Of a stretch of 43,417 nucleotides of DNA, positions 26,777 to 36,196 are shown in pieces. Below the pieces are notes generated by a model that did no database searches, was not told where the DNA came from, and saw only the letters and a program-made list of their open reading frames with translations. The stretch is from an uncultured Candidatus Melainabacteria bacterium (lineage in GTDB: Bacteria; Cyanobacteriota; Vampirovibrionia; Gastranaerophilales; Gastranaerophilaceae), in assembly GCA_949741915.1 (NCBI GenBank), contig CATJOM010000093.1, forward strand, positions 1-43,417, read 5' to 3'. Position numbers and translations under genes: made by a program. Position 1 is the first letter of the stretch, and the number at the start of each line of letters is the position of its first letter.

Positions 26777-27826
26777 ATGGGAATGGCAGCAAGCCAGGCA
26801 AGATTTTTAACTCTTACTGCAAGAAAATCAAATGTTGAATACGAAGGCCAGCAGGTTAACCAGGAAAGAACTTCTTTGGCTAATGAAAGTGCCGGCTTGT
26901 TCAATAAAATGATGGAATTGCAGGTTCCAACGCCGCCAAGCGCAACAGATTTTTACAATACGCGCTATACTTTTGATGCTAAAGGTTCTGATTATTCTAT
27001 TACAAATACAACACCAAGAACTGATGGCAAATATGATTTAACTCTTGCATATAAAACCTCCGAAGCTACTGCTAAAGCGTATAATACATTTGGTACGATG
27101 AATTTTACAAACGGTGTGCCATCTTCAATTAAGGCATTTGGGACTGATTGCCCAATTACTGTATTGACAAGGAATGCAGCTGGTGATTATGTTGATTCAG
27201 CGGGTGTTGTTGATTCAGATGTTAAGACTGTTGCAAAGATTGCCAATGAAAATTTAGAATCAGATGTAAATGCTACGTACTATAAATACAAATATAATGA
27301 TACAGAATACTATATTTCAGGCACAAACATGGCTGATATTATTGCCGATGCTGCAGCAGCAGGCACTGATAGCTATGATATTTCAAAAACCTTCTCAAGC
27401 GGTTTAAGTTCTTATTATGCAACAACACAGGATGTAACCAAGACTGTAAATGCGGTTGGCGGATTTCCTACAACCACTGCTGAAGGGCGTTTTGAACAGC
27501 TTTATATCGACAGCGTTGATGAGGATGTGGATGCTTCAATAAGCAAGGCGCTTATTGGCAAAGTATTTGACCTTACCTTGACTCAGGTGCAGGATGATGA
27601 AGGGTATGCAGATGCTATGAAGGATTATGAATATCAAAAAATGCTCTATGAAAGAACAATTAATGATATTAATGCTCAGACTGAAATTATTCAACAACAA
27701 GATAGAACCCTTGAATTAAGGCTAAAACAGCTTGATACCGAGCAGGATGCCTTAAATACAGAGCTTGAGGCTGTTCAAAAGGTAATTCAGACAAACGTTG
27801 AAGCAACATTCAAAACATTTGCATAA
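26777..27826 (+). CDS. Flagellin-like two-helix protein with central beta-rich insert
   Basis: A 349-residue protein. Residues 1-50 (MGMAASQARFLTLTARKSN...) and the last 75 residues (a coiled coil ending with LDTEQDALNTELEAVQKVIQ then NVEATFKTF) are long amphipathic helices. The middle, about 55-265, is Thr/Ser/Asp/Tyr-rich and predicted beta. The layout is that of flagellin, hook and type III filament proteins: conserved terminal helices with a variable central domain. There is no signal peptide. The short protein at 35867-36196 has the same kind of ends without the insert. GGAGG lies eight bases before ATG 26777. No flagellar or type III genes are in the window; filament formation is inference. 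Confidence 0.75.
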   Translation: MGMAASQARFLTLTARKSNVEYEGQQVNQERTSLANESAGLFNKMMELQVPTPPSATDFYNTRYTFDAKGSDYSITNTTPRTDGKYDLTLAYKTSEATAKAYNTFGTMNFTNGVPSSIKAFGTDCPITVLTRNAAGDYVDSAGVVDSDVKTVAKIANENLESDVNATYYKYKYNDTEYYISGTNMADIIADAAAAGTDSYDISKTFSSGLSSYYATTQDVTKTVNAVGGFPTTTAEGRFEQLYIDSVDEDVDASISKALIGKVFDLTLTQVQDDEGYADAMKDYEYQKMLYERTINDINAQTEIIQQQDRTLELRLKQLDTEQDALNTELEAVQKVIQTNVEATFKTFA

Positions 27827-27956
27827 ACCAGCGCAAGCCAGGGTGAAACTGAGGCAATGCGATGAGCATTGACGAAGTGTAACTATTGATGGCTGCCGTA
27901 GGAGCACAGCAAAGCGAGCACCACAGGCAGAAAACCAGCGCAAGCCAGGGTGAAAC
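27825..27956. repeat. GC-rich island bounded by 25-bp direct repeats
   Basis: An exact 25-bp direct repeat, AAACCAGCGCAAGCC then AGGGTGAAAC, occurs at 27825-27849 and 27932-27956. Between them lie a perfect hairpin CAATGC-GATGA-GCATTG and an imperfect one CTGCCGTAGG...CCACAGGCAG. The island is clearly richer in G+C than its surroundings and begins at the stop codon of the preceding gene. It may terminate transcription or be a REP-like mobile unit. The rest of the 427-bp gap (27957-28253) is AT-rich; I see nothing in it except the ribosome site CGAGG before the next gene. Confidence 0.7.
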
Positions 27957-28253
27957 CATCGATTCATAACAGCAAAAAGCATTACAAATAAAGCTTTTTC
28001 AGTGTATTACAAAATTGTAGTGAATAAAAATTTTGACTTATAGAGCAAAATCATTAAAAATAAATCGCGGGATTTCTTTTAAAATTCAGTCCGAAGTTGC
28101 TCAATATACTGCTAATAGGGTGGTTTATGGTAAATAATCTGGTTTAATTTCTAATCCATTTATAGGTTTTCAAAAATGTTCTTTATAATCTAAAATAAAA
28201 ACAAACCCCATAAGAAAAAGAAGGTATTAAGGTTAGACTAAAACGAGGTAAAA

Positions 28254-29105
28254 ATGTCGTATAGATACGATAGTTCGCTGGTTATAGCAAATAAATACGG
28301 GCTTGCAAGCTCTCTTGCAAAGGCCGAATTGTACGAAACTTATGATAGGTTAAGAGATATCACTGTATCGGGCTCTGCCTCTGCTGGTACGGGTTTTGGT
28401 ACTGTAGGTGGTTTTCTATGGCAGCTTGCAAGTTTGTTTTCGCCAAGTTCTTTTATGCCTATTATGGGCGGAAACGCTATGATGAATATCCCGGGAACTT
28501 CTTACTGGTCGCCAGTTACGGGGGCAACCTCTAATATTTATGGTGCCACAAATTCTTTTGGAATAGGTGGTTTGGGGTCTTATCCAGGATTCCCATCAGG
28601 TGCTGCACCTGTTTCGTGGGGTTTAGGGTCTGTAACTGGTGGTGCAAGTAGTATTTCAAATTCTTATTCTTCTAATTCTTACCCTGGTGGGGTTCCTACT
28701 GGTTATGCTGTTTCAGCTTCTGATATAGCAGGGCTTACAGCTGGTTCTTATTTAACAAGTGCTGTCAGCACCGGCACAAACTTTGGCCAAAATTTTATTT
28801 TACCTGTAGCAGGCGTCATTTCAGGTATTGGCGGGCTTATGCAGTCTGTGGCTCCATATATGGGTACATCGGGGCTTGCAGCAATCATCGCTGGTAATTT
28901 GCTTGAAGGCACAGGCTCTGCAGCGTTGAATGCTTATCAAAATGTGACGGGCAGAATTACCACAAACGCAGACGCTATTTTATCAGACAAGGTTCGAAAC
29001 ATAGAGACTGTCTGCAAAATGCTTGATACTCAGGCTGAAATTGTAAGAAAGACACTTAAGGATGAGATTGAAGGCGATAGCCAGGCCGTGAATGATATAT
29101 CATAG
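28254..29105 (+). CDS. Gly/Ser-rich protein with hydrophobic helices and helical tail
   Basis: A 283-residue protein I do not recognise. Residues 1-40 are helical and charged (LASSLAKAELYETYDRLRD). Residues 41-170 are Gly, Ser, Tyr and Pro-rich low complexity. Residues 180-225 contain hydrophobic helices (ILPVAGVISGIGGLMQSVAP, SGLAAIIAGNLLEG), and the last 45 form an amphipathic helix (DKVRNIETVCKMLDTQAEIV). It has no signal peptide. Soluble ends around a hydrophobic, glycine-rich middle resemble secreted translocator or coat proteins, but no homology is claimed. It lies between two other lineage-specific proteins on the same strand, each with its own ribosome site. Confidence 0.65.
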   Translation: MSYRYDSSLVIANKYGLASSLAKAELYETYDRLRDITVSGSASAGTGFGTVGGFLWQLASLFSPSSFMPIMGGNAMMNIPGTSYWSPVTGATSNIYGATNSFGIGGLGSYPGFPSGAAPVSWGLGSVTGGASSISNSYSSNSYPGGVPTGYAVSASDIAGLTAGSYLTSAVSTGTNFGQNFILPVAGVISGIGGLMQSVAPYMGTSGLAAIIAGNLLEGTGSAALNAYQNVTGRITTNADAILSDKVRNIETVCKMLDTQAEIVRKTLKDEIEGDSQAVNDIS

Positions 29106-35345: not shown

Positions 35346-35595
35346 ATAAGCAGAACAATAGCGAAATTTTAATTTTTGTAACAAATTATTAAAAAAATAA
35401 TGATTTTCTTCAAGTCTTGCTATGATGTGCCGATATACAAGATATAGGAATGTTTCAGGGATTTTGACATAAAGAAATGAAGCATTAAATTGTATTTAAA
35501 CTCATGTTATGACGTACTTTTGGGGCAATTTTTTGGCTTGTTTTGTTTTTATTAAATTAGGCAGGCTTTGCCCCTTATAAAAAAGGAGTAAACTG

Positions 35596-35865
35596 TTGCA
35601 GCAAACAATACAGATAAATTTAAAAAGATTAAAGAACTTTTTAGGGTTTTCAAAGAGTTATCTAATCAGGAACAACCCGATAAAGGCTTTTATCAATGAG
35701 ACTGTTGCAATAGTGAAAGATACGCTTTCAATTAATAAGAAGAGGAAGCTTGCAAAGTACCGTCTAAATTATCAAATGTACAAATTGAACCAAATGGAAA
35801 AACTTATTGCAGCAAATAATGACCATGTTTTCCTGAGGGGCAATAAATTTAACGAAATGAGATAA
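35596..35865 (+). CDS. Small basic helical protein
   Basis: An 89-residue protein, strongly basic and predicted almost fully helical (KRLKNFLGFSKSYLIR, INKKRKLAKYRLNYQMYKLNQMEKLI). Not recognised. It starts with TTG, supported by AAGGAG seven bases upstream. Its stop lies one base before the ATG of the flagellin-end-like protein 35867-36196, so the two are translationally coupled and may work as a pair, for example subunit and chaperone or anchor. The 268 bp before it hold no gene I can see. Confidence 0.65.
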   Translation: MQQTIQINLKRLKNFLGFSKSYLIRNNPIKAFINETVAIVKDTLSINKKRKLAKYRLNYQMYKLNQMEKLIAANNDHVFLRGNKFNEMR

Positions 35866-35866
35866 T

Positions 35867-36196
35867 ATGGGTTTAATCACCGCAACAATTAGAAAGGCAC
35901 AATTAAATAATTACAGACTGGATTTAGAATACAGGATGCAGCTGATTAACACATCCAAATTAAATCTGAGCCAGACTGTGAATGAACTTTTGAGCGTTAG
36001 CAGTGATTTAGATGTGAATTCACCAGAAGCCAAGGCTCTTGAGAAAAGAAAAGAACGCCTTTATCTGGTTGAAAAGAAGCTTGAAGAACAGGCGCAAAGG
36101 TTTGAAACGCAGCTTAAAATGGTCGAAGCAGAGCTCCAAAGCTGCGATCAGATGATTGATAAGAATATTCAATACTCTTACGGTGGCGGAAGATAG
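35867..36196 (+). CDS. Short two-helix protein related to 26777-27826 ends
   Basis: A 109-residue coiled-coil protein. It begins MGLITATIRKAQLNNYRLDLEYRM and ends with EEQAQRFETQLKMVEAELQ, DKNIQYSYGGGR. Both ends parallel those of the 349-residue protein at 26777 (MG.....R...L..R...EY at the start, E.+LK.++.E.......I..N+..+F/Y at the end), but the central domain is absent. Size and two-helix plan resemble type III needle or flagellar rod/hook-end subunits. No signal peptide. Immediately preceded by a coupled small basic protein. The parallel is my reading of pattern, not a proven homology. Confidence 0.68.
   Translation: MGLITATIRKAQLNNYRLDLEYRMQLINTSKLNLSQTVNELLSVSSDLDVNSPEAKALEKRKERLYLVEKKLEEQAQRFETQLKMVEAELQSCDQMIDKNIQYSYGGGR

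Follow-up and report, generated by a model that had tools for sequence, protein, structure and literature searches.

The window analysed here is the complete 43,417-nucleotide stretch of contig CATJOM010000093.1 from an uncultured Candidatus Melainabacteria bacterium of the order Gastranaerophilales, whose genome we call the source genome. Its plus strand encodes a long protein, P0001 (349 amino acids, 26777..27826), and a short one, P0002 (109 amino acids, 35867..36196), and both open reading frames are indeed present where the original prediction had placed them. P0001 has a flagellin-like plan, composed of a conserved N-terminal helix (residues 2–47, 26780..26917), a variable β-rich insert (residues 60–272, 26954..27592) and a conserved long C-terminal helix (residues 274–348, 27596..27820), while P0002 is a member of the same family without the insert. 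Direct BLASTP comparison of the two was marginal, with E values of 0.018 for one end and 0.068 for the other. We also compared the proteins as profiles with hhalign, using orthologue alignments from related genomes (38 sequences for P0001, 23 for P0002) and 60 column shuffles as a control. The N ends matched in register from Met1 (score 43.6, P 2.6e-9, 41 columns; shuffles at most 12.7), and the C ends gave a score of 50.1 (P 2.1e-10, 50 columns; shuffles at most 18.5). Crosswise N-to-C comparisons gave no match. P0001 and P0002 are thus homologous at both ends. In the P0001 family, whose members start with MG(M/L)AASQ.R and end with FKTF(A), the mean fraction of the majority residue is 0.80 at the N end and 0.70 at the C end, and 0.25–0.32 in the middle.

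A third protein bridges the two. P0003, a 109-residue homologue without a middle, was found by tblastn in the record MW495066 ("Microcystis phage MaAM05"). It aligns with P0002 gaplessly over 105 residues (34% identity, E 3e-17), and is 58% and 64% identical to the two ends of P0001, the insert being absent. Because P0003 matches P0002 without a gap and also both ends of P0001, the family is, judged from the sequences, one of two conserved helices around an exchangeable middle. The 274-kb record (MW495066.1), which carries members of the P0001/P0002 family, contains glyS, gatD, secD/F, acpS, smc and scpA/B around P0003; since these are bacterial housekeeping genes, the record probably represents bacterial DNA that was deposited under a phage name. 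No relatives of P0001 or P0002 were found in viral contigs, and MW495066 was the sole match in the phage collection, so we rejected a phage origin of the family. A viral fold search gave mainly long phage proteins with low TM-scores.

The structure predictions agree with this plan. The model of P0001 (predicted local distance difference test, pLDDT, 90.1; predicted TM-score, pTM, 0.61) shows the helix, β-rich and helix segments delimited above, and P0002 (pLDDT 89.4) is modelled as a helical hairpin of residues 3–45 and 53–105. In a Foldseek search of the PDB with P0001, the flagellin 7sn4 came first (E 7e-5); of the eight chains ranked after it, seven were flagellin, cap-filament or junction chains. 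VIA-align gave Z scores of 8–9.6 to flagellins, FlgL (5yti), rod (7cbm), hook (3a69) and cap complexes; as a Z near 8 lies close to background, the fold argument rests on the recurrence of the same functional class and not on any single Z. For P0002, Foldseek ranked generic hairpins highest. Both terminal helices of P0001 are aligned together, for example over 112 residues with a root-mean-square deviation of 2.0 in 9n8g, so that the two ends are neither unrelated nor unpaired but superimpose jointly on solved flagellar axial proteins. The model, the structure comparison and the conservation hence predict for P0001 a feature of bacterial flagellins, a variable middle flanked by paired terminal helices. 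Profiles, the insert-free bridge and confident models together bear out what had originally been proposed, namely the homology of P0001 and P0002, their divergence by central insertion and a resemblance to flagellin-type axial subunits.

By sequence, P0001 does not belong to the flagellins: neither P0001 nor any of its 38 relatives matches the flagellin domains PF00669 and PF00700, and profile comparison of the family with the order's own flagellins gave no similarity. Pfam and NCBIfam scans gave no meaningful family match for either protein, the Pfam matches being coiled-coil noise, and no needle-family match for P0002; a sequence-profile search of the PDB found nothing. WXG/LXG matches were absent from P0001 and P0002, and one of the 38 relatives gave a weak LXG match. 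P0001 has no hydrophobic N-terminal stretch, which fits type III export. The family thus shares with flagellin FliC and the junction protein FlgL the paired terminal helices that align jointly, the conserved ends, the variable β-rich middle, multiple copies and a promoter of the sigma-28 type, but differs in its termini and in lacking any sequence or Pfam match. It is also found alongside true flagellins in flagellated relatives and is retained in genomes that have no flagellin. P0002 is short and all-helical like rod, hook, FliE and type III needle subunits, and 109 residues fall within the size range of FliE and needle proteins. Unlike a member of those families, it has no match to them and is homologous, via P0003, to its long paralogue P0001.

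Upstream of P0001, 32 nucleotides before the start codon, a motif scan located a sigma-28 (FliA)-type promoter, TAAAGTCA - 11 nt - GCCGATAT, which matches the consensus at 13 of 16 positions (26718..26744, plus strand). The same site precedes the P0001 orthologue of the sister genome (L019). Counting sites of at least 13/16 within 120 nucleotides upstream, we found them at 17 of 40 family genes and at 9 of 630 control genes, although the 40 family genes are related, so that the Fisher p value of this enrichment overstates independence; 0.35% of shuffled upstream regions score as high. FliA exceeds its curated cut-off in 113 of the 117 genomes of the order, including the source genome. A further site at 35410 (13/16), about 160 nucleotides before the gene of an 89-residue protein described below, was left uncounted because a shuffled window would contain about 1.3 sites of this quality on each strand by chance. 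Separately, a 272-residue protein (MYVAIFNT...) encoded about 4–5 kb before P0001 homologues has, in three genomes, a sigma-28 promoter close to consensus at 14–15/16 (L117:5909-6727, L118:5909-6727, L119:5176-5994) and may belong to the same regulon as the P0001 family.

The original prediction had noted neither flagellar nor type III genes. This is correct for the window but not for the genome, which elsewhere encodes divergent FlhA, FliE, FliF and FliH together with sigma-28. FHIPEP proteins (FlhA/SctV) occur in all 117 genomes of the order and fall into two full-length score classes, of which the source genome has the divergent class only (G000:C88, 708 bits). This protein scores 678 bits with the FlhA model versus 594 bits with SctV, both under the curated equivalog cut-offs. 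As it is nearer to FlhA than to SctV but below both thresholds, its sequence assigns it to a flagellar-type but divergent FlhA. The run around this flhA encodes a lytic transglycosylase, FliE, FliF, an unrecognised protein in the fliG position and FliH; in genome G014 the same run additionally encodes FlgB, FlgC, FlgF/G-like rods and FliI. The protein between FliF and FliH (e.g. L087:5370-6371) is conserved and matches no FliG model, with a weak MgtE_N match in 4 of 13 relatives. Flagellated relatives have both canonical and divergent FlhA, in separate clades. Flagellin exceeds the cut-off in only 43 of the 117 genomes, and none was found in the source genome with PF00669. The source genome has two Flg_bb_rod matches, compared with five to ten in most flagellated relatives. 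A soluble protein of about 485 residues, in which the cytosolic part of FlhA follows a different N-terminal region, is also encoded in the source genome (L169:5185-6639, C68) and in G014 (L170:7539-9020), and a partial FHIPEP match of this kind is seen in many genomes of the order.

The P0001/P0002 family accompanies this divergent FlhA. P0001-type matches were found in 116 and P0002 matches in 114 of the 117 Gastranaerophilales genomes. The family is multicopy, with up to about 10 members per genome that have very different middles and range from 109 to about 500 amino acids with the same ends. The source genome contains at least two further clear members (about 234 and 233 residues). In addition, a 164- and a 183-residue protein match convincingly at one end only and are probable, not certain, members by sequence. 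All four genes stand singly, apart from the other members. A survey of 240 genomes from the class found the family only in the order and in the taxonomic families f9, f14 and f15, while f10, f11 and f12 have FHIPEP without the P0001/P0002 family and neither is present in the listed genomes of f8 and f13. In a FastTree phylogeny of FlhA, the second copies of the family-bearing groups form one clade, apart from canonical FlhA and from the f10–f12 copies. Among the sampled class genomes, the family therefore occurs only in taxonomic families that carry the divergent FlhA clade. G046, with no full-length FlhA, no P0002 and weak family matches, fits a joint loss.

The genes are also physically associated. 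In relatives, genes for a P0001-like protein, a protein of 270–290 residues, one of 89–97 residues and P0002 form one contiguous four-gene cluster; in the window the same four genes lie as two pairs, about 6.5 kb apart. The partner of P0001 is a 283-residue protein (28254..29105, plus strand) with conserved ends and a glycine-rich, hydrophobic centre, which by composition only could be tip- or translocator-like, and a relative of which adjoins the P0003 gene in MW495066. Homology of its ends to the P0001 family was considered and found unsupported, the N end scoring below shuffles and the C end barely above them. The partner of P0002 is a basic helical protein of 89 residues (35596..35865, plus strand), which has a TTG start in the window and whose stop codon adjoins the P0002 start. 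In more than 30 genomes (e.g. G002, G022, G062) P0002 lies 6–13 kb from the divergent flhA, though these share ancestry and are not independent events. In the sister genome, the gene that follows the 283-residue gene also differs.

Several other features lie around these genes. Immediately 3′ of the P0001 stop codon, the raw sequence carries two copies of a direct repeat, aaaccagcgcaagccagggtgaaac (27826-27960). A 377-residue protein with weak RHS-repeat similarity is encoded at 29889-31022 (plus strand), in the gap that separates the two gene pairs of the cluster. A frame-broken gene occupies 34117-35327 (plus strand): it starts near 34117, runs into a nine-G run (34231-34239) and then changes frame into EF-hand-type open reading frames. 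With a sigma-28-like site upstream (34054-34081, 14/16), it could encode a phase-variable or broken secreted protein. On the 3′ side of P0002, an adjoining GNAT-like acetyltransferase frame (36211-36549, plus strand) ends early at 36549, with similar coding-like sequence beyond, and is probably a broken gene.

With a probability of roughly 60%, we believe that P0001 and P0002 belong to a second flagellar-type apparatus, as its axial or secreted subunits. The conserved N- and C-terminal helices would serve assembly and export, and the middle would be exchangeable, its length varying between a short turn and several hundred residues. Export would proceed through a second, divergent flagellar-type type III apparatus with its own FliE, FliF, FliH, FlhA, FliG-position protein and lytic transglycosylase, and the family would form or decorate the external part of this apparatus, replacing hook and flagellin. 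In this scheme P0001, controlled by sigma-28, may act as a surface subunit resembling flagellin or a junction protein, and P0002, which has no surface domain, as a minimal subunit of the rod or needle type. That the proteins are secreted and polymerise, and which part each of them plays, is what we infer here. The original suggestion of an undescribed filament or intracellular fibre is accordingly narrowed: given divergent FlhA, FliE, FliF, FliH and sigma-28 in the genome, a flagellar-type secreted structure is likely and an intracellular fibre unlikely. A number of observations weigh against our reading. G219 apparently lacks a full-length FlhA yet has strong family genes, and G020 has both FlhA classes with no match to P0001 alone; these are the exceptions to the co-occurrence of family and export system. 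In the source genome, the cluster and the divergent operon are on different contigs. The Foldseek TM-scores of P0001 are low and its VIA-align Z scores lie near the background of unmatched models. Many family genes have no sigma-28-like promoter, and only one of 21 sampled true flagellins scored as high; nor do the order's own flagellins resemble the family in profile comparison.

Instead of polymerising, the proteins might leave the cell through the divergent export system as effectors or surface antigens, their conserved ends being an export and chaperone-binding signal. Up to about 10 members per genome with very different middles, and single genes scattered besides the cluster, would suit such a role, and the association with FlhA and sigma-28 would be the same. 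The conservation of both ends, modelled as paired helices like those of axial subunits, argues for subunits, and the insert-free members of 109 residues consist of two helices only and leave no room for an effector domain. We regard this explanation as unlikely, although it is the strongest competitor of the axial-subunit reading. A still more distant alternative is that the proteins are cytoplasmic coiled coils or belong to another secretion system (e.g. WXG/LXG-like or phage-derived), unrelated to the flagellar type. Helical hairpins are common, those of P0002 find generic counterparts, and one of 38 members matches LXG weakly; yet the family tracks the divergent FlhA across the class, is associated with the promoter, and has relatives neither in viral contigs nor in the phage collection beyond the one record with bacterial housekeeping genes, which makes this explanation improbable.

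Partial flagellar sets of gut Melainabacteria have been read as incomplete, reduced or non-functional flagella (PMC3787301, PMC4040986, PMC5877343), and the divergent flhA-fliF-fliH are the same genes that two of these papers counted (PMC3787301, PMC4040986), where ACD20 is already listed with two flhA. Incomplete sets were assumed there to be what is left of a decaying ancestral flagellum. The same explanation for the divergent operon and the family would be in line with the ongoing reduction those papers describe and with a source genome that has no flagellin and few rod-type genes. The open frames are, however, intact and without stops across the order, and the family genes are amplified rather than lost. 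Since flagellated relatives carry canonical and divergent FlhA side by side in separate clades, the divergent set is not a leftover of the canonical one. We therefore give decay little credence: unlike the sets as previously counted, the genes form their own clade, are found beside canonical flagella and are linked to a new family. Flagellar export components are also kept without a flagellum in the non-flagellated Lysobacter enzymogenes OH11 (PMC7277350); there they are tied to twitching motility, whereas here a second FlhA clade, separate from the canonical one, comes with an order-wide, substrate-like family. Our literature search found no description of such a second system, with many subscription papers and bioRxiv preprints outside its scope.

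In summary, the data argue for a distinct flagellar-type apparatus that is kept throughout the order, with flagellin missing from most of the sampled genomes, and they put forward members of the P0001/P0002 family as its likely external subunits. If this is true, common gut bacteria would have a flagellum-derived machine beyond the known injectisomes, and the family would be a case of axial proteins gaining or losing surface domains while their ends stay the same. More tentatively, one may speculate that these non-photosynthetic cyanobacterial relatives have a second flagellum-derived surface machine distinct both from flagella and from the injectisomes known so far. It would possess filament or needle subunits of its own and a 283-residue protein resembling a tip or translocator, would be controlled by sigma-28 and would serve flagellin-less cells in the gut.
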